Positions 1,797-19,933 of a DNA stretch of 20,475 nt are shown in pieces. A program made the translations under genes and the position numbers. The stretch is taken from positions 1 to 20,475 of the IMG/VR virus record IMGVR_UViG_3300020215_000155; one strand, written 5' to 3'. Below the pieces are notes generated by a model, which searched no databases, was not told the DNA's origin, and was given only the letters and a program-made list of their open reading frames with translations. The stretch's first letter is position 1. Every line of letters begins with the position of its first letter. This DNA is from a virus.

Positions 1797-2138
1797 TCAG
1801 CCCTTCTGGGCGGCGATCCGTGCTACCGACATGATCGTCTGCTTACCAGCCTCATCCGCCTTAGAAAACAGCTCTAGAAGCTCCAGAACCTGTTTATTCG
1901 AGGCTGGGCTGTCTGTGAAGTCTATGGCCAGCATCTGCCAGGCGGATAGGCCGAAAACCTTGGCAATCCCATCGAGCCCCTTAAGTCGGAAGTTGTGACC
2001 GGCGTCCAGGTAGTTGTAGATCTGTTTTTCTTGGACACCAGCCGCTCTGGCCACCTTGGCGACCGTAGTTTTCTCCAACTCAATGAGCTTCCTCAGATTC
2101 TTCGCGAACCTGTGGACGAGATTTGTAGGGGTGTCGAG
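1797..2138 (-). CDS. Xre-family HTH repressor, CI-like, without a self-cleavage domain
   Basis: A leftward HTH protein of 113 residues from the GTG at 2138. The helix-turn-helix is seen in TTVAKVARAAGVQEKQIYNY followed by GLDGIAKVFGLSAWQMLAID (a typical Xre/Cro-CI five-helix fold in roughly residues 12-76). The C-terminal 35 residues are helical (QVLELLELFSKADEAGKQTI), probably for dimerisation. There is no S24/LexA-type peptidase, so RecA-triggered self-cleavage is not expected. ATG codons exist at 2216 and 2234, but those starts would run the gene through all three operators and over the cro-like start. GTG at 2138 leaves the nearest operator just upstream, as in autoregulated repressors. 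Divergent position from a Cro-like gene supports the role. Confidence 0.8.
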   Translation of the reverse strand, partial: LDTPTNLVHRFAKNLRKLIELEKTTVAKVARAAGVQEKQIYNYLDAGHNFRLKGLDGIAKVFGLSAWQMLAIDFTDSPASNKQVLELLELFSKADEAGKQTIMSVARIAAQKG

Positions 2139-2142
2139 CACC

Positions 2143-2156
2143 TGTAAAGCATTCCA
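2143..2156. promoter_or_regulatory. Right operator OR3 (one mismatch)
   Basis: TGTAAAGCATTCCA fits TGTAA-N4-TTACA at nine of ten specified bases. It lies four bases upstream of the repressor GTG start, placing it to block repressor expression when occupied. Confidence 0.6.
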
Positions 2157-2165
2157 CGATACAAG

Positions 2166-2179
2166 TGTAATAGGTGACT
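2166..2179. promoter_or_regulatory. Right operator OR2 (weak second half)
   Basis: TGTAATAGGTGACT has a perfect left half-site and three of five bases in the right half. Its centre is exactly 23 bp from both neighbours, which supports it despite the mismatches. Confidence 0.5.
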
Positions 2180-2188
2180 TGACTTTCC

Positions 2189-2202
2189 TGTAACTTGTTA
2201 CA
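2189..2202. promoter_or_regulatory. Right operator OR1 (perfect palindrome)
   Basis: TGTAACTTGTTACA is a perfect palindrome of the TGTAA-N4-TTACA type, 12 bases upstream of the cro-like ATG. A TTGACT at 2179-2184 could be the -35 of the rightward promoter with the operator in its spacer, but the matching -10 (about 2201-2207) is poor. With one more base on the left it reads CTGT-N8-ACAC, one base from the enterobacterial SOS core CTGT-N8-ACAG. Confidence 0.7.
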
Positions 2203-2214
2203 CACTCAGGGCTC

Positions 2215-2424
2215 ATGAACCTGCTTGAAAGCACCCAAAAGCTCCTTCAATCCCGTCTTGCCGAGGGGATGACGCTTCGCGAGATCGCGAAGGAATCAAA
2301 CGGCACGGTTCCATTTGAGTGGCTGCGAAAGTTCGCGGACGGCACATCCAAGAATCCCACGATCACTCCTTTGCAGAACCTGCACGACTGCTTGAAGGGC
2401 ATTCGCACACGTAAGTCGGCCTAG
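2215..2424 (+). CDS. Cro-like small HTH regulator
   Basis: The first rightward gene gives 69 residues. A helix-turn-helix is visible in GMTLREIAKESNGTVPFEWL, followed by KFADGTSKNPTITPLQNLHD, the usual ending of a single Cro/CI HTH where the last helices select a gene position (compare NPTxxxLxxL). The start at 2215 has a short-spaced AGGG. Position, size and divergence from the repressor across a triple operator make it the functional Cro equivalent: it should bind the same operators and lower repressor and early expression. This role is inferred from layout; the sequence itself only shows a small HTH protein. Confidence 0.75.
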   Translation: MNLLESTQKLLQSRLAEGMTLREIAKESNGTVPFEWLRKFADGTSKNPTITPLQNLHDCLKGIRTRKSA

Positions 2425-3314: not shown

Positions 3315-3538
3315 TGGCTCCCTCACAAGGCAGAAAGGCCCTTTTTTTTGGCCCTGAGGTTTCAACTAGTAGCGCATTCCTACGGGATTCGCTGGTAACG
3401 GCTGATTGCGAACGGCGGATAGATCGGTGTCTGGCGGGGATGCAGAACGCCAAGACGTGGGCATGGGTAAAGCGATGGATGGCCGCTTACCTGTGCTTGA
3501 AGCGGGAGCGGGATGAGAGAAGCGGGGTTGCGTCATGA
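3311..3538 (+). CDS. Hypothetical small basic protein
   Basis: A 75-residue frame starts at 3311 (GGAG seven bases upstream; a second ATG directly follows at 3314). The C-terminal half is helical and rich in Trp, Arg and Lys (NAKTWAWVKRWMAAYLCLKR). The coding sequence contains a run of eight T (3342-3349), but the frame continues normally through it as ALFFGP. It ends in an ATGA overlap with the HNH endonuclease gene. Function unknown. Confidence 0.6.
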   Translation: MMAPSQGRKALFFGPEVSTSSAFLRDSLVTADCERRIDRCLAGMQNAKTWAWVKRWMAAYLCLKRERDERSGVAS

Positions 3539-4101
3539 ACCAAGAGCAACTCACGCAGTTGGCTCACTACGATCCTGAAACCGGTGTTTTCACCCGTCTT
3601 TGCGGGGTCAAGCGCGGACATCCAGCCGGAAGCGTCAAGCCGAACGGCTATGTTCGAATCAACTTCGGTCGTGGCCCGCTTTACGCCGCCCACCGCTTGG
3701 CGTGGCTTTACATGACCGGTGAGTGGCCAAAGCACCAGATCGACCACATAAACCGGGTCAGATCCGACAACCGGTTCTGCAACCTTCGCGATGTTTCCGT
3801 TTCGCTTAACGCGCTCAACAAGGGCGCCGCTGGCGTTAGCTGGGACAAACGCAAAAAGAAATGGCGGTTCGATCTGCGTTTCGCAGGTCAGCGCGTTTGG
3901 GGCCGGCGATCGACAAGAGAAGAAGCAGCAAGCGCATACCTGGCTGCGAAGGACCGCCTGCTCACGGCCGATGAGCAGGCTGCCCACGCGGACAGAGGCT
4001 CACGGAGTGTGTCCGACTTGAGTCCGGATACTACGACAGTCTTCGTAGATAGTCAATTTTCAGAGGTTGAAAAGCAAAACGCCCCAGGAGTTGTGTCCTG
4101 A
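3535..4101 (+). CDS. HNH endonuclease with C-terminal AP2-like DNA-binding segment
   Basis: The 188-residue protein looks like a free-standing HNH homing endonuclease. N-terminal strands (YDPETGVFTRL, SVKPNGYVRI) lead to AAHRLAWLYMTGEWP and QIDHINRVRSDNRFCNLRDV, giving the HNH set H53, D70-H71, N73 and N83. Residues 100-135 (GVSWDKRKKKWRF, then TREEAASAY) resemble the AP2-like DNA-binding module that often follows HNH_3 domains. The tail after about residue 150 is low in pattern. The start overlaps the previous stop (ATGA), so it is coupled to the early operon although it is probably a selfish element. I found no intron structure around it. Such enzymes nick or cut a target, often in related phages lacking the gene. 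Confidence 0.9.
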   Translation: MNQEQLTQLAHYDPETGVFTRLCGVKRGHPAGSVKPNGYVRINFGRGPLYAAHRLAWLYMTGEWPKHQIDHINRVRSDNRFCNLRDVSVSLNALNKGAAGVSWDKRKKKWRFDLRFAGQRVWGRRSTREEAASAYLAAKDRLLTADEQAAHADRGSRSVSDLSPDTTTVFVDSQFSEVEKQNAPGVVS

Positions 4102-4106: not shown

Positions 4107-4394
4107 CGTTTCTAACTGCTTGACCGGCAGTGGAGTCGATGAGTGAGCAGTGAAATCCGCCAGCACTCAACGGCTTGGATGATACCCGGTACTGGGGGCA
4201 TGCGCAAACCGGGCGCGGCAGGCGATAGCGAGAAGCCGCGTTAAGCATCAGGTTCGCTTTTTTTAGGAACTTGAAAGTAGCTCGCAGTGGAGTGGCTCCG
4301 ATGGGTCACTGCGCAGTCAGCTTGTTGGGCAACCAAGGGCTAAGACTGCGTGGAGTTCACCAATGGGTCACCCCGGAAGGATGAGGGTAGAGAC
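4102..4394 (+). other. 293-base gap with hairpins and an imperfect repeat
   Basis: I find no gene here. TGAGTG (4141-4146) can pair with a CACTCA near 4165, CCCGGT with an ACCGGG about 20 bases further on, and GCAGTG (4284-4289) with CACTGC (4307-4312). A seven-T run occurs near 4258 without a strong stem before it. A ~22-base imperfect direct repeat (4287-4309 and 4350-4371, about 18 identities) starts GTGGAGT and ends ATGGGTCAC. The gap sits between two endonuclease-like genes, so it may include insertion boundaries. Confidence 0.4.
4287..4371 (+). repeat. Imperfect direct repeat upstream of the GIY-YIG-like gene
   Basis: Copy 1 is 4287-4309 and copy 2 is 4350-4371. Both begin GTGGAGT and end ATGGGTCAC, with a few substitutions and a one-base gap between. 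Copy 1 is enclosed by a GCAGTG/CACTGC hairpin; copy 2 lacks it. The second copy ends 23 bases before the gene start. Confidence 0.45.
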
Positions 4395-4781
4395 ATGTAC
4401 GTGTACTTCATTAGGAGTAATTCGAGACCTCCAATGCTGAAGATAGGCAGATCCGATGATCCCATTCATCGAATGGCCGAATTACAGGTTGGTAGCCCTT
4501 TTGAGTTGGAGATGGTCGGAACAGTCAAATGCAGGAGCCACGCGCATTCAGTCGAGATGGAAACGACGGCCCACAAATTGTTTCGTGGGAGTGCCTATCG
4601 AGGCGAGTGGTTCAGGTACGACCAGAAATTGCAGGACTATGTCGCAGCCTTGCTGAAAGGCGACGCGGACAGCATGAGACACAACATCCATGCGCTGAAG
4701 GTCGATCGCTGGTTTGAACGACAGGAGCGAAAGCGCGCGGCGAAAGAGGCGCGGCGACTCGCGAGGGAGAGCCGGCCATGA
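4395..4781 (+). CDS. GIY-YIG-like nuclease (T5orf172/MUG113 type)
   Basis: The 128-residue protein begins MYVYFIRSNSRPPMLKIGRS, the YVYF...KIG version of the GIY-YIG core. HRMAELQVGSPFELEMVG follows, then VEMETTAHKLFRG with the family's acidic residue, and RGEWFR. This is the order seen in T5orf172/MUG113-type domains found in phages and mobile DNA. The C-terminus is a basic helix (RQERKRAAKEARRLARE). An in-frame ATG at 4350 adds 15 residues outside the domain and lacks a good ribosome site; the ATG at 4395 follows GAGGG and begins exactly at the domain. It may be a homing or recombination nuclease. Confidence 0.82.
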   Translation: MYVYFIRSNSRPPMLKIGRSDDPIHRMAELQVGSPFELEMVGTVKCRSHAHSVEMETTAHKLFRGSAYRGEWFRYDQKLQDYVAALLKGDADSMRHNIHALKVDRWFERQERKRAAKEARRLARESRP

Positions 4782-5212
4782 ACGAGGTTTTTGGACTGAA
4801 TGCAGAGGCATGGAACACCTGGCTTGCGTACCGGAAAGAGATCCGAAAGCCATTGAAGCCAATGTCACAGAAGCTCGCGGCAAAGAAGCTCGCGAAGTTT
4901 GGGAAAGATCAGATGCGCGTAGTCGAGCAAGCGATTGAAAACGGATGGACGGGGCTCTGGCCGCTTACCGAGAAGGGTAATGGCGGGCCCCCTGCATTCC
5001 GTGCAGAAAAAAAGGCGCAACGCGATTTGATCGAGATGAACGAACTGAAGATCAGAGCCGAGAAGATCGGGTTTCGCCAGCCGCTCCCCGGGGAAGACCT
5101 GCTCAGCTACCGGACGCTTGTGGAGCGTGCGGAGTGGCAAGCATCGGAGAAACGTCGGGTACAGGCACGCGGAATGCAGCCCATTGCAAAGCTCCTGGGG
5201 GGTGCGTCGTGA
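4778..5212 (+). CDS. Replication-associated phage protein, W-x-YR / NGWTGLW module
   Basis: The 144-residue protein starts in an ATGA overlap after GAGGGAGA. Residues about 10-70 (EAWNTWLAYRKEIRKPLKP, LAAKKLAKFGKDQMRVVEQA, IENGWTGLWPL) copy the module found at the C-terminus of many phage replication organisers and helicase-loader-like proteins, where a W..YR start and an S/E-x-NGWxGL ending are conserved. Here it stands at the N-terminus of a short protein and the usual winged-helix origin-binding part is missing. The C-terminal half is charged and helical (RDLIEMNELKIRAEKIGF). A replication role is inferred; no origin or helicase is visible nearby. Confidence 0.6.
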   Translation: MNEVFGLNAEAWNTWLAYRKEIRKPLKPMSQKLAAKKLAKFGKDQMRVVEQAIENGWTGLWPLTEKGNGGPPAFRAEKKAQRDLIEMNELKIRAEKIGFRQPLPGEDLLSYRTLVERAEWQASEKRRVQARGMQPIAKLLGGAS

Positions 5213-5406
5213 GCCAACGTCTCGAGATTCAACGCCACCTCGCCAAAGGCCACACCATCACCCCCATGCAGGCGTTCCTGAAGTTCGGATGCCTGGCGCT
5301 TTCGCAGCGCTGTACAGAGCTTCGCCGTGATGGCTGGCCAGTCAAGACCCGCATGGTCAACGTGAACGGAAAAAGAGTCGCGCAGTATTCCATGGGGCGC
5401 AAATGA
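5209..5406 (+). CDS. HTH_39-like helix-turn-helix protein
   Basis: The GTG at 5209 overlaps the previous stop (GTGA) and follows GGGGGG, giving 65 residues. Its pattern, LEIQRHLAKGHTITPMQAFL, then FGCLALSQRCTELRRDGWPV and VNGKRVAQYSMGRK, matches the small phage HTH_39 family: helix, ITPxxA turn, G-C-x-x-L-xx-R recognition helix, then a beta-wing. The longer frame upstream lies over the previous gene and is not used. Likely a sequence-specific DNA-binding regulator or recombination accessory protein; family members are uncharacterised. Confidence 0.78.
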   Translation: MSQRLEIQRHLAKGHTITPMQAFLKFGCLALSQRCTELRRDGWPVKTRMVNVNGKRVAQYSMGRK

Positions 5407-5567
5407 CCGCCGCCCAATACCAAGCCATCTGGAAGCAGATCCAGCGCGAGCACAAGCCTGATCGCCAAAGCAATGCGCGCAATCGCTGCGGGTGCTGTGG
5501 GGTGGAGATCTGGACGGGGCTGAGGGTTTGTAGGGCCTGTCGCACTAGAAAACAGGTGGCTGCATGA
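5403..5567 (+). CDS. Zinc-ribbon microprotein (54 residues)
   Basis: It starts in an ATGA overlap after a GGGG site. The product is basic in its first half (KQIQREHKPDRQSNARN) and then carries RCGCCGVEIW and RVCRACRTRK, a CxCC/CxxC arrangement typical of a small zinc ribbon. Probably a nucleic-acid-binding or adaptor protein; no named family. Confidence 0.68.
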   Translation: MTAAQYQAIWKQIQREHKPDRQSNARNRCGCCGVEIWTGLRVCRACRTRKQVAA

Positions 5568-5698
5568 GCATCGCGCGTACACCAGAGCAGAAAGCCAAGA
5601 AGCGGCTACGAGACGCGCGCTATCGGGAGCGCAATCGGTTGTCGATCAAGGTGCGTCAGGAGCTGCGCGGGCTAAAGATGATGAGGGAACGCGCATGA
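5564..5698 (+). CDS. Very basic 44-residue protein
   Basis: ATGA overlap with the zinc-ribbon gene and a good AGGTGG site support this frame. The peptide (MSIARTPEQKAKKRLRDARY, then RERNRLSIKVRQELRGLKMM) is almost entirely helical with about a third Arg or Lys. It could bind RNA or DNA, or act as a small adaptor. No family recognised. Confidence 0.6.
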   Translation: MSIARTPEQKAKKRLRDARYRERNRLSIKVRQELRGLKMMRERA

Positions 5699-5781
5699 GC
5701 AGCTATTTCTTTTTTCTCTTTGGCGCTATCTGTGGAGTAGCAGTCATGTGCATTTTCTATGCGACGGATGGGGAGGAGTGA
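5695..5781 (+). CDS. 28-residue single-pass membrane microprotein
   Basis: It starts in an ATGA overlap after GAGGGAAC and ends in a TGATG overlap with the LexA-like gene. The sequence MSSYFFFLFGAICGVAVMCI plus FYATDGEE is one membrane helix with an acidic tail, so it should sit in the inner membrane with the tail outside or inside unresolved. Size, overlaps and a strong ribosome site argue for a real gene despite the length. Confidence 0.6.
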   Translation: MSSYFFFLFGAICGVAVMCIFYATDGEE

Positions 5782-5990
5782 TGCACCCAATGACGCCAAA
5801 GCAATTGGAAGTCCTGCGCTATATCAAGGCTTATCAGCACGAGGAAGGCATGCCCCCGACTAGGGCCGAGATGTGCGAGGCGTTCGGATGGAAGTCACCT
5901 AACGCCGCTGAATGTCATCTACGGGCATTGGCTTCGCATGGGCTTATCAAGCTCGTGCCGGCGATCTCTCGCGGGATCAAGGTGCTGTGA
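5781..5990 (+). CDS. Stand-alone LexA DNA-binding domain (LexA mimic)
   Basis: The 69-residue product lines up without gaps with residues 1-69 of enterobacterial LexA as I recall it: GMPPTRAE (23-30), FGWKSPNAAE (35-44), HLRALASHG (46-54), SRGI (63-66). The residues that read the SOS half-site (S39, N41, A42, E44) are kept. It ends where the LexA linker starts, so the autoproteolytic and main dimerisation half is missing and RecA cannot trigger its cleavage. Start at 5781 follows a strong GGGAGGAG site and matches LexA Met1; the upstream extension belongs to the microprotein region. It may bind host SOS boxes or the phage operators. Without dimerisation, binding should be weak unless another contact helps. 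Confidence 0.88.
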   Translation: MHPMTPKQLEVLRYIKAYQHEEGMPPTRAEMCEAFGWKSPNAAECHLRALASHGLIKLVPAISRGIKVL

Positions 5991-6112
5991 TGGCAAAGAA
6001 AACAACGTGCCCGCTGCGCAACGTGAGAGTCATGCAGGTGCTTGCCACAGAGACCGTGCATCGTGCGGTTATCGCGCGAATTCATCATGGCAAGGGGTGG
6101 CGCCATGTATAG
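5990..6112 (+). CDS. Hypothetical 40-residue basic protein
   Basis: The start overlaps the LexA-like gene by one base (TGATGG). The product MAKKTTCPLRNVRVMQVLAT, ending IARIHHGKGWRHV, is basic with His and Trp near the end. No family recognised. The end overlaps the start of the nuclease-like gene, keeping the chain of coupled genes. Confidence 0.5.
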   Translation: MAKKTTCPLRNVRVMQVLATETVHRAVIARIHHGKGWRHV

Positions 6113-6368
6113 GTTCGCCGCCAAGAGGGACAGCAACGAGAAATCAATCTTTAAGGCCCTCGTAACCGCTGGTGCCCAACCGATCAGGGGCACAGACAGC
6201 GACATTTACGCTCGTCACGCAAAGGGTTTCGGCGTGCTTCTAGAGGTAAAGACCAAGGACGGCACGTTACGGCCTATCCAGGTGGAGTTACAGGCGTTGT
6301 TTGGGGACAGGTATCACGTGGTCAGGAGTGAGGAAGAAGCGCTCCGTGCATGCGGGAGGATGGTATGA
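6105..6368 (+). CDS. PD-(D/E)XK nuclease-like protein (VRR-NUC-like)
   Basis: From the ATG at 6105 (AAGGGG upstream) the product has 87 residues. It carries the small nuclease pattern: RDSNEKSIFKALV with E12, then GTDSDIYARHAKGFGVLLEV with D31/D33 and the ExK (E47, K49), then RPIQVELQALFG with a Gln after the core. This order, E - D - ExK - Q, is that of VRR-NUC and phage Holliday-junction or restriction-like nucleases, here at near-minimal length. Upstream in-frame Met codons exist but lie over the previous gene. It could process recombination or replication intermediates. The catalytic assignment is from motifs only. Confidence 0.72.
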   Translation: MYRFAAKRDSNEKSIFKALVTAGAQPIRGTDSDIYARHAKGFGVLLEVKTKDGTLRPIQVELQALFGDRYHVVRSEEEALRACGRMV

Positions 6369-6646
6369 GCCAGTTTAAGCCCGGTGACATTTGCGTTGTC
6401 GTTGGCGGGCCCGATATGTCTGCTGAGGATGCCGACTTGGTTGGCAAAGAAGTGACACTCACGGAGTGGTTCATTTTCTGGGGCGTGCGCTGCTGGTACA
6501 CGACGGACGACAATTCGCGCGGCTATCGGGAATCAATCTTGCGCCTCAAGCGCCCCAAAGACGACGCAGAACCCCGAGCAGACTTCACCCCCTGTGACGA
6601 CGACTTCCGCGAATGGCTCAAGGCGCGGCAGAGGGAGCGGGTATGA
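6365..6646 (+). CDS. Hypothetical protein with SH3-like N-terminal segment
   Basis: The 93-residue protein starts at 6365 after GGGAGGA, overlapping the nuclease stop. It opens with MSQFKPGDICVVVGGPDMSA, then GKEVTLTEWF, resembling the small beta-barrel (KOW/SH3-like) opening seen in several phage proteins of unknown role; the other window example is at 117-362. The C-terminus is charged (DDDFREWLKARQRERV). No function can be assigned. Confidence 0.65.
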   Translation: MSQFKPGDICVVVGGPDMSAEDADLVGKEVTLTEWFIFWGVRCWYTTDDNSRGYRESILRLKRPKDDAEPRADFTPCDDDFREWLKARQRERV

Positions 6647-6852
6647 GCTGGCAGCCAATTGAGACAGCGCCCAAGGACGGAACTCGCGTCTGGCTGTATT
6701 GCCCAGAGGATGAGCCGACGCAGGTAGTCGGAGAGTGGATCGAGGGCGACGGGTACGCACTGTGGGCCTATGTCGATGCATGCATGCGCGACGTAGTGCC
6801 TGAGGGGCCTAGCCCGACGCACTGGATGCCCTTGCCGGAGGGCCCGAAATGA
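6643..6852 (+). CDS. DUF551-domain protein
   Basis: The 69-residue protein starts in an ATGA overlap after GAGGGAGCGGG. It has the DUF551 signature at both ends: MSWQPIETAPKDGTRVWLY at the start and GPSPTHWMPLPEGPK at the end. DUF551 proteins are very common in phage early regions and prophages and have no established function; the domain is usually about this length, so the gene is complete. Confidence 0.88.
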   Translation: MSWQPIETAPKDGTRVWLYCPEDEPTQVVGEWIEGDGYALWAYVDACMRDVVPEGPSPTHWMPLPEGPK

Positions 6853-7016
6853 CCTGCACCCGATGCCACCGTCCCCACAAAGGACGCTATGTCCGCTGTT
6901 ACCCATGCAGGAAATACGAGAAGCACTGCCGGGTATATCGCGCTCAGATGGAAATCGGGACGCACATAGGGAACGAGGTTTATCAGGTGCTATTCAAGAA
7001 CGGAGAACGGACATGA
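6849..7016 (+). CDS. Zinc-finger microprotein (55 residues)
   Basis: ATGA overlap at both ends and GGAGGG upstream support it. The product begins MTCTRCHRPHKGRYVRCYPC, with CxxC at 3 and 6 and CxxC at 17 and 20, a treble-clef or zinc-ribbon layout, followed by a basic helix and a short strand pair (NEVYQVLFKNGERT). Likely nucleic-acid- or protein-binding; no family named. Confidence 0.68.
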   Translation: MTCTRCHRPHKGRYVRCYPCRKYEKHCRVYRAQMEIGTHIGNEVYQVLFKNGERT

Positions 7017-7237
7017 CGCCAATGAATGGCGATCACGCGCAGTACGAGATTGACAACGCCGGTGTTCCTTTGGAGCAGCGCAGCGACTACCCGTATTGCT
7101 CTTTCGATGCGAGTGATTGGGCAAAGGCATTTGTGAGGCAAAACCCCGAGTTTGACCAGGGAATGGCCATCGCATGGTTCGCGGCTGCACTGATGCGCGG
7201 ATTCGATGAGGGCGCATCTCGGGAACGAGGTTTTTAA
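7013..7237 (+). CDS. Hypothetical small acidic protein
   Basis: The 74-residue product starts at 7013 in an ATGA overlap after GGAG. It is acidic and aromatic (QRSDYPYCSFDASDWAKAFV, then GMAIAWFAAALMRGFDEGAS), with a helical C-terminal half. I do not recognise a family. It is the last early gene before the terminase small subunit. Confidence 0.6.
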   Translation: MTPMNGDHAQYEIDNAGVPLEQRSDYPYCSFDASDWAKAFVRQNPEFDQGMAIAWFAAALMRGFDEGASRERGF

Positions 7238-8370: not shown

Positions 8371-8543
8371 GTAGGCTTGCCTTGTTGTATCGCTGCTTGC
8401 GACGACTGAAAAAGCGCGAAGGGGCGCTGAATGATCTGTTCAGGGAGCGCTTCGGAGTGCGTATTCGCAAAACTGGGATTGTCTTTGTTACCGATGATTC
8501 GCCAGAGATCCGCATCTGGCGCGAGTTGGGAGCGCCACGATGA
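8367..8543 (+). CDS. Hypothetical 58-residue basic protein
   Basis: ATGA overlaps at both ends and an AAAGGT site support it. The product starts MSRLALLYRCLRRLKKREGA, an amphipathic basic helix, followed by a probable strand pair (VRIRKTGIVFVTDDSPEIRI). No family recognised. Confidence 0.55.
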   Translation: MSRLALLYRCLRRLKKREGALNDLFRERFGVRIRKTGIVFVTDDSPEIRIWRELGAPR

Positions 8544-8899
8544 ATCTTCACTGGGTACGCCGACAGCTTTATCACTGGGGCCTTATGAACCGCGCTCACG
8601 GCATCGGCTACCCAACGATGGCAGCCACCGAGAAAGCCCGTATAGGGCGCGGTGGCGTGTTTGAGGGGCCTAACTTGCCGCAGGATCTGGAGGAAGTAGA
8701 CCTTGCGGTGAGGCGGCTCGAGCCCCAGCACAAGCTCGTGATAGCCGAGTGTTACACGCATTACGGCACGCACATGGATCACATGATTCGGCTGCGTATG
8801 TCAGAGCGGACATACTTTCGACGTAAGAATATCGCCGAACAGCGTGTTTACTGGTTACTACAGCGTGACAGCGATTACCTACAATCTGCGTCAGGCTGA
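8540..8899 (+). CDS. Late-gene regulator, antitermination protein Q / RinA-like
   Basis: The 119-residue protein starts in an ATGA overlap after GGGAG. The N-terminus (LYHWGLMNRAHGIGYPTMAA) and the HTH part (LEPQHKLVIAECYTHYGTHM, then IRLRMSERTYFRRKNIAEQR) match phage late regulators of the Q/RinA/ArpU kind, whose C-terminus resembles sigma-70 region 4: helix, CYxHYG turn, and an S-ERTYFRRK recognition helix. Such proteins let polymerase pass a terminator, or activate the late promoter. Its place as the last gene before a promoter-like sequence, a strong terminator and the virion genes fits this exactly. The antiterminator versus activator choice cannot be made from sequence. Confidence 0.8.
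   Translation: MNLHWVRRQLYHWGLMNRAHGIGYPTMAATEKARIGRGGVFEGPNLPQDLEEVDLAVRRLEPQHKLVIAECYTHYGTHMDHMIRLRMSERTYFRRKNIAEQRVYWLLQRDSDYLQSASG
8880..8885 (+). promoter_or_regulatory. Possible late promoter -10 element
   Basis: TACAAT, one base from the sigma-70 consensus, overlaps the end of the Q-like gene. No good -35 lies 16-18 bp upstream (TTACTA is 19 bp away). A start near 8892 would make an RNA of roughly 85 bases ending at the terminator at 8951-8976, the lambda pR'-tR' plan. Confidence 0.35.
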
Positions 8900-8950: not shown

Positions 8951-8976
8951 AGCCCCGGAATCAGGGGCTTTTTTTT
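8951..8976 (+). terminator. Strong intrinsic terminator before the virion genes
   Basis: AGCCCC pairs with GGGGCT (six pairs, seven-base loop), followed by an unbroken run of T up to 8976. It stands between the Q-like gene and the spike gene. The spike gene's ribosome site (GGAG, 8977-8980) begins right after the T run. Confidence 0.9.
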
Positions 8977-16598: not shown

Positions 16599-17546
16599 AT
16601 GGAAACGCCAGGAATGGAGCAAGGCCAAGCGCCCTCCATCGAGTCACGTATTGAAGCGATGATGTTGGGAAAGCCTAAGCCGGAGATCAAACCGGCACCT
16701 AAAGAGGCACCCGAAATCGAAGCGTCTGAGCCGGAAGGTGAAGCGCCTAACACTGAAGAAACCGAAGCACAGGAAGCTCAAGAAGCCACTCCGACCGCTG
16801 AGGATCTTTTCGAGATCGAGGTAGATGGCGAGACCTTCGCCCTGCCTAAGAAGCTCGAGAAGGCCGTTCTTCAGGAACGCGACTATACGCAGAAGACTCA
16901 ATCTCTGGCCGAACAGCGCAAGCAGTTCGAGCTATTGCACGAACAGGCGCGTATAGCCAGTTTCCGACAGGAGTTTGAGGCAGAAGCCTCCGCAGAGCTG
17001 CAACAGCTCCAAGCGTATGACGCGGTATTGAAACAGCCCATCGACTGGACATCGATGTCCACCGATGAGGTGATACGCAAGAAGCTCCAGTTGGATCAGT
17101 GGAAGGACGAACGCGAAGCTATCGCGAAGTCATTGCAGGCAAAACACCAGCAATTCGAGAAGAAAACTCAGGATGCGTTGAAAGAGCTTAAGGCCAAGGC
17201 TCAAGAAACCATCACCAAGAGAATTCCGAACTGGAGCGATGCCACGCAAAAGGCTATCCGCGAGCACGCGATCTCTGAGGGTTATACGGAAGCGGAGCTG
17301 AATTCGATCATCGATCCGCGTCACACGCTCACTTTGTGGAAGGCCCAGCAGTTCGACCTGCTCAAGGCCAAGGCCACCAAGACGGTTACTGACGTGAAGA
17401 CGGTGAAGACCACTCCTAGCAATCCGATGCCTCAGAAGACCAAAGAGCTACTGAACTATCGCAAGACGCTCCAGAAAGCCCCGCCGAATTCCCCTGAAAG
17501 GAAGCGCGCGGTTGAGGGGCGTATTGCCTCCATCTTTTCGAGGTAA
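16599..17546 (+). CDS. Capsid scaffolding protein
   Basis: The 315-residue protein (ribosome site GGAAGG) is acidic and disordered at first (EAPEIEASEPEGEAPNTEET), then has a short beta-like segment (LFEIEVDGETFALPKKLEKA) and long coiled-coil helices (about residues 95-220). A compact C-terminal part (IPNWSDATQKAIREHAISEG) precedes a basic tail (YRKTLQKAPPNSPERKRAVE). This composition, and the place right before the major capsid gene, are those of a head scaffold such as P22 or SU10 type. The basic C-tail would contact the capsid protein. No protease motif is visible. Confidence 0.82.
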   Translation: METPGMEQGQAPSIESRIEAMMLGKPKPEIKPAPKEAPEIEASEPEGEAPNTEETEAQEAQEATPTAEDLFEIEVDGETFALPKKLEKAVLQERDYTQKTQSLAEQRKQFELLHEQARIASFRQEFEAEASAELQQLQAYDAVLKQPIDWTSMSTDEVIRKKLQLDQWKDEREAIAKSLQAKHQQFEKKTQDALKELKAKAQETITKRIPNWSDATQKAIREHAISEGYTEAELNSIIDPRHTLTLWKAQQFDLLKAKATKTVTDVKTVKTTPSNPMPQKTKELLNYRKTLQKAPPNSPERKRAVEGRIASIFSR

Positions 17547-17636: not shown

Positions 17637-18566
17637 TAACAAATCTTCTCGAATATGAGAAGATAGTCCTCAGTGCTGCTAGCAGGCTGGGGCAATGACA
17701 AAGCAATGGGCTGACCTGACGAGAAAAGATTTCATCAGGTTGAATGACGATATGAGCGGCGTAGAAATAGCCGCTGAGTACGGCGTACATCACAACGCCG
17801 TGTACTACAAGCTACGTACACTCGGAATTCGCACGACGCGAAAGAAGCGTCGGTTTGATCCACCTAAGGCAGAGCTAGAGGCCCTGTATAGGCGGATGAG
17901 CATGGCGAAGATTGCCGAGCATTACGGAGTTGGTGAAACCGCAATATTCATGCGCCTTAAGGAGCATGGAATAGGCGGGATCACTAGATCGGATCGGTTA
18001 TCCGGTAAGCCAAAGAGTTTAGAGCACAGGCTTTCAATGAGCCGCAGTGCGCTAGCCTCTGGCGTCCGTGCAGGCGCGCGGAACGGTAACTGGAAGGGCG
18101 GCAAATCGAGTGCCAACAAATTGGCAAGATCGAAAGTCGCTTACTACGAATGGAAAGCTGGCGTTCTTGAAGCCGCTAACTGGACATGCCAGGGCTGCGG
18201 GAAGGAGCACGGTCATGTGTGTGAGTGTTGCGGACACAGGATTCTCCTGCACGCACACCACATCAAGTCATTCGCCAAGAATCCGAGCTTGCGGTACGAC
18301 GTAAAGAACGGACGAGCCCTTTGTGAGCGTTGCCACAATCTGGAGCATCACAAGCAATCGGGTGAATTCGGTGAACGTCCCACAGGGAAAACACCGAGCC
18401 AATCCGCATAAGTAGCGAAAGCGAGAGATGCGGCAGGCGTAACGACTAGGCTGTGACGAAAGAATAATCAGCCCACGAGCGCCCGACGCCGACAGGCGAT
18501 GAGATAGTCTGAGCTGCAAGGCAACTTGCAGATGCGCGGATAAAGAGCCGCGCGATAACAAATCTG
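17637..18566 (+). mobile_element. Group I intron with HNH homing endonuclease, in the capsid gene
   Basis: 930 bases separate the two capsid exons, with splicing predicted after U17636 and after G18566. P1: exon GAGGAU (17631-17636) pairs fully with GUCCUC (17666-17671), with U-G at the splice site; an eight-pair hairpin (17643-17664) fills the loop. P10: AGAUA (17661-17665) pairs with exon 2 UAUCU (18569-18573). Core: P3 AGCC (18397-18400)/GGCU (18449-18452), P4 CCGCAU (18404-18409)/AUGCGG (18428-18433), P5 with a GAAA loop, P7 GACUA (18444-18448)/UAGUC (18505-18509), P9 CTGCAAG/CTTGCAG with a GCAA loop, P9.1 GCGCGG/CCGCGC. The endonuclease gene fills the P2-side loop between P1 and P3. The joined protein reads through the conserved capsid motif. 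Confidence 0.94.
17695..18411 (+). CDS. Intron-encoded HNH homing endonuclease
   Basis: The 238-residue protein has two HTH-like repeats at the N-terminus (MSGVEIAAEYGVHHNAVYYK at ~20-39 and MSMAKIAEHYGVGETAIFMR at ~68-87), a NUMOD3-like ARNGNWKGG (128-136), and a C-terminal HNH with zinc ligands: CQGC (165-168), CECC (176-179), LHAHHI (185-190), N205 and ERCHNLEHH (211-219). The likely role is to cut intron-less capsid genes near the exon junction, so the intron is copied into them. It starts 58 bases into the intron with a weak GGGG site. The C-terminal codons (about residues 233-238 and the stop) overlap the ribozyme's P3 and P4 strands, so protein and RNA share these bases. Confidence 0.93.
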   Translation: MTKQWADLTRKDFIRLNDDMSGVEIAAEYGVHHNAVYYKLRTLGIRTTRKKRRFDPPKAELEALYRRMSMAKIAEHYGVGETAIFMRLKEHGIGGITRSDRLSGKPKSLEHRLSMSRSALASGVRAGARNGNWKGGKSSANKLARSKVAYYEWKAGVLEAANWTCQGCGKEHGHVCECCGHRILLHAHHIKSFAKNPSLRYDVKNGRALCERCHNLEHHKQSGEFGERPTGKTPSQSA

Positions 18567-19499
18567 GTTATCTGGGAACTGGACCCCATGGACACGTGGG
18601 CCCTCTCAAACCTTGATCATGTCAAGGCATCGTCCACTTATCACGAGTGGCTGACCGACAGCCTTGCGGCGGCGGGTGCGAACCTTATCCGCGAAGGCGA
18701 CGACGCGTCATTCGTGACCGCTGCTCCGGCGAATCGCCTGGGCAACTTCATGCAGATCAGCAACAAGACATTTGTTGTTTCTGACACCTTGGAGATCGTC
18801 GATAAGGCTGGTCGTAAGACGGAAACCGGCCGCTTGGGCACGAAGCTCATGAAGGAGCTGAAGCGTGACATGGAGTTCGCCCTGGTGCGCAACCAGGCGT
18901 CGTCCTTGGGCGCCGATGCCACTGCCCGTTCTTCGGCGGGTATGGAATCGTGGATCGCTGGTCCGACCGCTTCCACTGCCAATACGGCGGCTAACGTTGT
19001 TGCCTCCACCACGACCGCGGCGACTGCGACGACCCCGGGATTCTCCGGTGGCACGGTTGCGGCCCCGACGGACGGCACCACGACTGCGGCTCTGACCGTT
19101 GGTGTTCTCAATCTCGCCCTCCAGGGCGCGTGGGAAGACGGCGGCAATCCGACGGTCATTCTGGCGAGTGCTCAGAACAAACTCGTCATTGACGGGTTTA
19201 CCGGCCAGGTAACGCGCAATATCGACGTGTCGAAGGGCAAGCAGGCAACCATCGTTGGCGCTGCGAACCTCTACGTGTCGTCGTTCGGCGTACACCAAGT
19301 GATCCTGTCGCGGTACGTGCGTAACAACGCGCTGCTGTGTCTGGATACCGACTACTGGGCGGTGGCGTTCCTGCGCAAGCCCCGTGTCGTGGACCTGGCG
19401 AAGACGGGCGATGCGACCAAGAAACTGTTGGTGACGGAATTCGGCCTCGTGTGCCGTAACCCGTCTGCCAATGCGAAGGTGGTTGGCCTCGCGGCGTGA
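18567..19499 (+). CDS. Major capsid protein, exon 2 (SU10/DUF5309 type)
   Basis: From GTT at 18567 the frame gives VIWELDPMDTWALSNLDHVK, then STYHEWLTDSLAAAGANLIR and a long C-terminal part ending at 19499: 310 residues, so 339 in the spliced protein. The (REDLED)VIWELDP...TYHEWLTDSL pattern is that of SU10-type (DUF5309) capsid proteins with the HK97 fold. MELKRDMEFALVRNQ-type helix and the Ala/Thr-rich stretch (about ATASTANTAANVVASTTTAA) fit the family's middle part. A plain gene call would start at the ATG at 18588, lose the N-terminal 36 residues and report 303; no ribosome site supports that start. Confidence 0.95.
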   Translation, partial: VIWELDPMDTWALSNLDHVKASSTYHEWLTDSLAAAGANLIREGDDASFVTAAPANRLGNFMQISNKTFVVSDTLEIVDKAGRKTETGRLGTKLMKELKRDMEFALVRNQASSLGADATARSSAGMESWIAGPTASTANTAANVVASTTTAATATTPGFSGGTVAAPTDGTTTAALTVGVLNLALQGAWEDGGNPTVILASAQNKLVIDGFTGQVTRNIDVSKGKQATIVGAANLYVSSFGVHQVILSRYVRNNALLCLDTDYWAVAFLRKPRVVDLAKTGDATKKLLVTEFGLVCRNPSANAKVVGLAA

Positions 19500-19933
19500 T
19501 CGTAATTGTTGGTCACGGTCCCTCAGTCCTGTCTGGGCTGGGGGCCGTGATCGACTCTCATACGGTGGTCAGGCTTAAAAAGGCCCCCACCAAACCTGCA
19601 GAGCACTACGGGAAGCGCACGGATTATCTCTGTGCGCGATCCCTCATTTTCGATACCGGGCAAGTACCTTTCTGGCTCTTTCCCGATGACTCAAGGTGGA
19701 TTGAGTATTTCGCGCGCTTTCATCCACGACGACGCAAGCCCAGCACCGGGTTATGCGCAGTGTTTAGCGCTATAGACAGATTGGATGCCAAAGAGATCGC
19801 GTTGATTGGGTTCGATGCGATCTTGAATCAGCTTGATCTAGCTGGGCATGACACGAGAGCCGAGCACGAATGCCTGCATTCACTCGGGGTAAAGATCATT
19901 GACTTGGAGAAGGCACATCGCCCGCTTTGTTGA
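19496..19933 (+). CDS. GT29-like (sialyltransferase-fold) glycosyltransferase
   Basis: The 145-residue protein starts at a GTG overlapping the capsid stop (GTGA). It has the three sialyltransferase-type motifs in order: VIVGHGPSVLSGLGAVIDSH with TVVRLKKAP (L motif, 3-31), KPSTGLCAVFSAIDRLDAKE then IALIGFD (S motif, 81-107), and H118-x4-E123 (HDTRAE, VS motif). It is shorter than eukaryotic enzymes but similar to compact phage and bacterial GT29-like domains. These transfer a sugar from a CMP- or similar donor. Its coupling to the capsid gene suggests a role in the virion or at the host surface; substrate and acceptor are unknown. Confidence 0.75.
   Translation: MIVIVGHGPSVLSGLGAVIDSHTVVRLKKAPTKPAEHYGKRTDYLCARSLIFDTGQVPFWLFPDDSRWIEYFARFHPRRRKPSTGLCAVFSAIDRLDAKEIALIGFDAILNQLDLAGHDTRAEHECLHSLGVKIIDLEKAHRPLC

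Follow-up and report, generated by a model that had tools for sequence, protein, structure and literature searches.

A 69-residue protein encoded in the early region of a P22-like phage is a bare LexA DNA-binding domain, and it probably acts as a small transcription factor on promoters of the phage itself. Its gene occupies positions 5781-5990 (+ strand) of the window, by which we mean the whole stretch of DNA analysed, a 20,475-base IMG/VR virus fragment with a P22-like terminase/portal/coat block. We favour a phage-promoter factor of this kind over a mimic of host LexA at SOS boxes, over Cro-like feedback on early transcription and over a functionless truncation of host lexA.

The reading frame comprises 69 codons and a TGA stop, and its product (MHPMTPKQLEVLRYIKAYQHEEGMPPTRAEMCEAFGWKSPNAAECHLRALASHGLIKLVPAISRGIKVL) was characterised as a LexA-type winged-helix protein with Pfam and PHROG profiles, an AlphaFold (AF2) model and Foldseek. 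It looks like a real gene, with a ribosome-binding site, GGGGAGGAG, read directly at 5769-5777 (+) 5' of the ATG and with start and stop overlaps on both sides. The stop of a small hydrophobic ORF of 28 residues (5695-5781, +) overlaps its start, and an ORF of 40 residues (5990-6112, +) begins at the final base of its stop codon. The product covers all 65 positions (1-65) of the Pfam model PF01726, LexA_DNA_bind, at E = 1.1e-20 and 73.6 bits (cut-off 23.7 bits), and also matches phrog_24920 (6.9e-20) and phrog_362 (5e-17, residues 2-68). It was aligned by phmmer without gaps to residues 2-69 of E. coli LexA (E ~4e-16), and comparison with E. coli LexA 1-69 gave 34 identities in 69 positions and zero gaps. 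The first-pass annotation had called the product a phage-encoded LexA domain on such a gap-free match, and this identity is confirmed, far above chance level. With TIGR00498, the LexA equivalog model, it scored 61.8 bits, below the curated whole-protein cut-off of 110.95 bits. The protein indeed stops, as had been claimed, at residue 69, at the LexA linker, and it has no cleavage site, Ser/Lys dyad or dimerisation domain. When LexA residues 70-202 were compared with the 382 bases 3' of the stop, no match was obtained even at E = 100. With full E. coli LexA as the query, tblastn gave an alignment extending to 6290 that could have been taken for a remnant protease half; it proved spurious, since it passes through stop codons and a search with the C-terminal half by itself does not reproduce it.

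The model of the product is a winged helix with a mean pLDDT of 92.7, consisting of helices at residues 6-22, 28-35 and 40-52 and two wing strands. Its best PDB matches in Foldseek are the E. coli LexA-DNA structures 3jso and 3jsp (rmsd 0.8-0.9 Å; TMq 0.94 for 3jso), together with 1lea. Based on the model, the alignment and the contact residues of LexA (PMC3091678), the predicted helix-turn-helix is encoded at 5862-5936 (+) and is formed by helices 28-35 and 40-52, the latter being the recognition helix (SPNAAECHLRALAS). E. coli LexA contacts DNA through S39, N41, A42, E44 and E45 (PMC3091678). Retention of the first four had been noted before and is borne out, while the fifth, Glu45, which had been omitted, is Cys45 here. 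We compared these positions with those of 37 different host LexA domains, taken from full-length proteins of mostly beta- and gamma-proteobacterial origin. S39 and N41 never vary in this set and A42 and E44 hardly ever do; the window protein keeps all four. Position 45, by contrast, is variable in the host set (E in 18, D in 11, Q in 3, G in 2, T in 2 and S in 1), and Cys45 is therefore not decisive against SOS-box binding. For the same reason it was rejected as proof of altered specificity. R28, A43, H46 and L47, invariant or nearly invariant among the 37 host proteins, are retained as well, and the host-invariant L4, F37, K53 and G61 are replaced by M, W, H and A.

Unrelated phages, too, carry bare domains of this type in the corresponding genome segment. 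A tblastn search found LexA-type domains in 60 phage records, including a few that have full-length lexA. SfV orf42 (108 aa), mEp390 gp43 (106 aa), mEp460 gp46 (108 aa) and lexA_2 of Edwardsiella phage EPP-1 (71 aa) are all without a peptidase and are located in a segment that also contains RusA, HNH and Q-type genes. The first-pass view that a bare domain was new in a lambdoid-type phage thus has to be given up. A position between replication and resolvase/HNH/Q genes is common to these four phages, Proteus V3, Klebsiella phi9.1 and the viral contigs L142, L146 and L153. Contigs L139-L154 contain further bare domains, most of which end 2-12 residues past the wing; the gene order in L142 is anti-repressor, LexA domain, HNH and Q, and in L153 the domain gene lies immediately 5' of NinG. 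With SfV orf42 as the query, confirmed SfV-type copies were found in 526 viral contigs, and such copies are present in 2,212 of 5,426 complete E. coli genomes (two in every five), making protease-less LexA domains widespread in prophages. Existing annotations call these genes 'LexA DNA binding domain protein' (mEp460, SfII), 'LexA-like protein' or 'transcriptional repressor'. Judged from its sequence, the gene in the window phage is a further case of this known, widespread type; its product is among the shortest of these proteins and comes from a P22-like phage, but does not amount to a new type of system. Whether such domains recognise SOS boxes or operators private to the phage bears on the number of prophages able to act directly on the SOS response or on the timing of late genes.

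The window protein differs from each of these groups in some respect. It shares with the phrog_362/SfV orf42 family the peptidase-less LexA domain, the replication-to-Q segment of temperate phages and an ungapped alignment over residues 2-68. However, the SfV and mEp390 members have 106-108 residues with a conserved C-terminal extension of about 35 residues, whereas the window protein ends at residue 69; its phrog_362 match ends at position 68 of the 106-position model, leaving out the extension at 69-106, and SfV covers 1-106. Identity to SfV-type proteins is 41-42%, and these have an E44V replacement where the window protein keeps E44. EPP-1 lexA_2 and the domains of L142-L152 are equally bare, ending 2-4 residues past the winged helix, and occupy an early-operon site among an anti-repressor, an HNH gene and Q. 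They are 46-50% identical to the window protein and have Asp at position 45, and their neighbours differ in detail. A scan with the window protein as the sole query gave no viral relative and, in genomes, full-length LexAs only, where inspected. No close homologue of the window gene usable for a selection test was found.

Host LexA (TIGR00498; E. coli, Aeromonas and Burkholderiales MAGs) is 49-58% identical to the window protein over residues 1-69, with the same predicted fold and the same S39, N41, A42 and E44, but it possesses the linker, cleavage site, Ser/Lys protease dyad and dimerisation domain that the window protein does not have. A recent random truncation of host lexA, or a decaying gene without function, would fit the observations that the nearest sequences (58% identity) are full-length host LexAs, such as that of Aeromonas, and that relatives of the window phage are without a LexA domain. 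We nevertheless consider this origin highly improbable, given an intact ORF with a ribosome-binding site, overlapping neighbours and no protease remnant. In addition, Q19, W37 and I62 are absent from the 37 host LexAs and present in other phage domains, which favours a phage lineage over a fresh truncation. The best tree, on 66 columns with most forks poorly separated, groups the window protein with Myxococcus phage domains at weak support (88/84); the AU test did not reject one common origin for all the phage domains (p 0.42). The earlier annotation had also raised wide occurrence as a random truncation of host genes; the phage versions are found instead in a conserved neighbourhood, with residues that the host set does not contain.

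The window terminase shares 55% identity with that of ctkAd229, a related podovirus from Manatee Spring. From 4778 to 7237 successive genes, the domain gene among them, overlap by a few bases. Upstream in this operon lies the gene of an O-like replication initiation protein with partial similarity (4778-5212, +; phrog_678 1.2e-13). Downstream, the gene at 6105-6368 (+) encodes a possible VRR-NUC or Holliday-junction-resolvase-like protein, tentatively assigned from phrog_5702 at E 0.014 only; its position is that of RusA in SfV-type phages, and ctkAd229 has an annotated VRR-NUC gene 3' of its O-like gene. A transcriptional-activator-like protein, possibly a late-gene regulator, is encoded at 8540-8899 (+; phrog_248 2.8e-4), and at 8951-8969 (+), 5' of the downstream gene block, the sequence shows a strong hairpin with a T run after it, resembling a terminator. 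Two nuclease-type genes, HNH_3 and T5orf172/MUG113 GIY-YIG-like, stand beside the replication gene in the early region (3535-4101 and 4350-4781, both +).

A relative of the window phage, L015, has a terminase 69% identical to that of the window, and no LexA domain is present in its record. Between its homologue of 5403-5567 and a nuclease-like gene it carries a methyltransferase-like gene (DPPY motif, by eye), indicating that the domain gene is an accessory gene in an exchangeable slot. The same relative has only about 115 bases at the place taken in the window by the gene at 17695-18411 (+), which lies between the probable scaffold and coat genes (16599-17546 and 18588-19499) and whose product has, judged by eye, an HNH-like C-terminus. 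That gene therefore looks inserted and may encode a homing endonuclease. Directly 3' of the probable coat gene, 19496-19933 (+) appears by eye to be glycosyltransferase-like, an odd spot for a sugar-modifying enzyme.

As a non-cleavable mimic of LexA, the window protein would sit on host SOS boxes in infection or induction and damp the SOS response, a role suggested in the first-pass annotation that we regard as unlikely. The retained contact residues S39, N41, A42 and E44, the conserved R28, A43, H46 and L47 and the natural variability of position 45 are consistent with SOS-box binding, and a protein without a protease would escape RecA. On the other hand, the host-invariant K53, G61, F37 and L4 are altered, E44 is Val in SfV-type relatives, and the C-terminal dimerisation domain is absent. 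A LexA domain deprived of C-terminal dimerisation should bind SOS boxes with an affinity far below that of LexA. Nor do the boxes themselves point to this role. No exact CTGT-N8-ACAG occurs in the 20,475 bases of the window, and sites with one mismatch number 6 where 6.9 are expected by chance, so that enrichment of SOS boxes was rejected. An association of SOS boxes with domain-carrying phages was likewise rejected, the boxes being present in relatives but independent of the domain. Slightly less probable is a form of this role in which host SOS-box specificity is kept and the uncleavable protein holds part of the SOS regulon, or the early promoter of the phage, shut during cleavage of host LexA, the CI-like repressor of this phage having no RecA-cleavable domain itself.

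The immunity region offers one candidate site. A CI-like repressor with a helix-turn-helix is encoded at 1797-2234 (- strand; start codon uncertain), its best Pfam match being HTH_26 (3.2e-4), along with matches to PHROG transcriptional repressors. No Pfam match to an S24/LexA-type peptidase was obtained for it, and SOS induction via repressor self-cleavage therefore looks unlikely in this phage. A Cro-like small repressor (2215-2424, +; phrog_9425 1.3e-6) opens the rightward early operon, followed by a CII-like gene at 2567-2965 (Pfam and PHROG profiles). In the cI/cro-like gap, at 2188-2203, lies CTGTAACTTGTTACAC, a one-mismatch CTGT-N8-ACAG that forms the perfect palindrome TGTAAC-TT-GTTACA. 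In a phage with a CI-like repressor that has no RecA-cleavable domain, the window protein might bind this palindrome between the two divergent genes and, like Cro, stop early transcription or assist host LexA there. The placement of the site inside a divergent regulatory gap and the CI-like protein without a peptidase match argue for such feedback, to which we give little credence, about as much as to the occupation of host SOS boxes. Sites of this kind occur at chance frequency, and a perfect palindrome is what a CI/Cro operator is expected to look like anyway; CTGTAACTTGTTACAC could equally be one. No operator for the window protein was identified in the window.

A closer parallel is found in GIL01, a Bacillus tectivirus. 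Its gp7 had been put forward as the precedent; the relevant protein is instead gp6, a truncated LexA that activates transcription (PMC6182141). This homologue, mainly a DNA-binding domain, is encoded by ORF6 (4350-4550) in the phage early region, and at sub-micromolar concentration it binds a specific palindrome, GaCACAnnTGTGaC, which overlaps the late promoter at its -35 region; it directly activates this promoter both in vitro and in vivo (PMC6182141). The site of gp6 differs from that of LexA and there is no competition with host LexA at P3 (PMC6182141), an observation that also counts against occupation of SOS boxes by the window protein. Lys38 in the recognition helix of gp6 is essential for binding (PMC6182141). 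Residue 38 of the window protein is also Lys, a match by number alone, as gp6 is known here by description. Compared in this way, both are truncated LexA homologues without a protease in a phage early region, but gp6 is a demonstrated late-promoter activator via its own palindrome and belongs to an unrelated virus and host. In the literature searched, we found no experimental study of the enterobacterial phrog_362 family or of any protease-less phage LexA domain besides gp6.

Activation by gp6 as a bare LexA domain shows that such a domain can regulate without the dimerisation half. The resemblance of the window protein to this case in architecture and position is the reason why we prefer a small phage transcription factor, derived from a LexA DNA-binding domain and probably acting on phage promoters. 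Having lost, or never possessed, the dimerisation/autoprotease half, the protein would be a product of the delayed-early operon, its gene lying after the replication gene and ahead of the late-gene switch. With the protease absent, RecA cannot inactivate it. Two monomers would probably occupy a short palindrome at one or a few phage promoters, and these promoters would probably be activated or repressed in the manner of gp6. From the gp6 analogy we infer all three of the DNA that would be bound, activation as against repression, and the promoter concerned.

SOS boxes in other phages deserve separate mention. In many enterobacterial prophages related to SfV and L142, a LexA-box sequence, ACTGT-N8-ACAGT, overlies codons 4-9 in a gene for a phage DNA methyltransferase (L003:8909, L142:7296, L146:7184 and L194-L273, at the methyltransferase start in each). 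The Thr4 codon is ACT in 48 of 48 distinct methyltransferase genes (against 26% for Thr codons in the rest of the gene), the Ser9 codon is AGT in all 48 (25% elsewhere), and Asn8, where present, is encoded by AAC in 45 of 45 (43% elsewhere). Such fixed synonymous codons, in 48 genes related by descent, point to selection on the DNA sequence, and LexA control of the prophage methyltransferase is possible. Of the 37 loci that carry the box and have 6 kb or more of upstream sequence, 35 are without a bare LexA gene; the methyltransferase box is independent of that gene. Hafnia phage yong2 (L006:6091) encodes a protease-less LexA domain of 123 residues with a RecA gene close by, and an exact SOS box lies just 5' of this recA.
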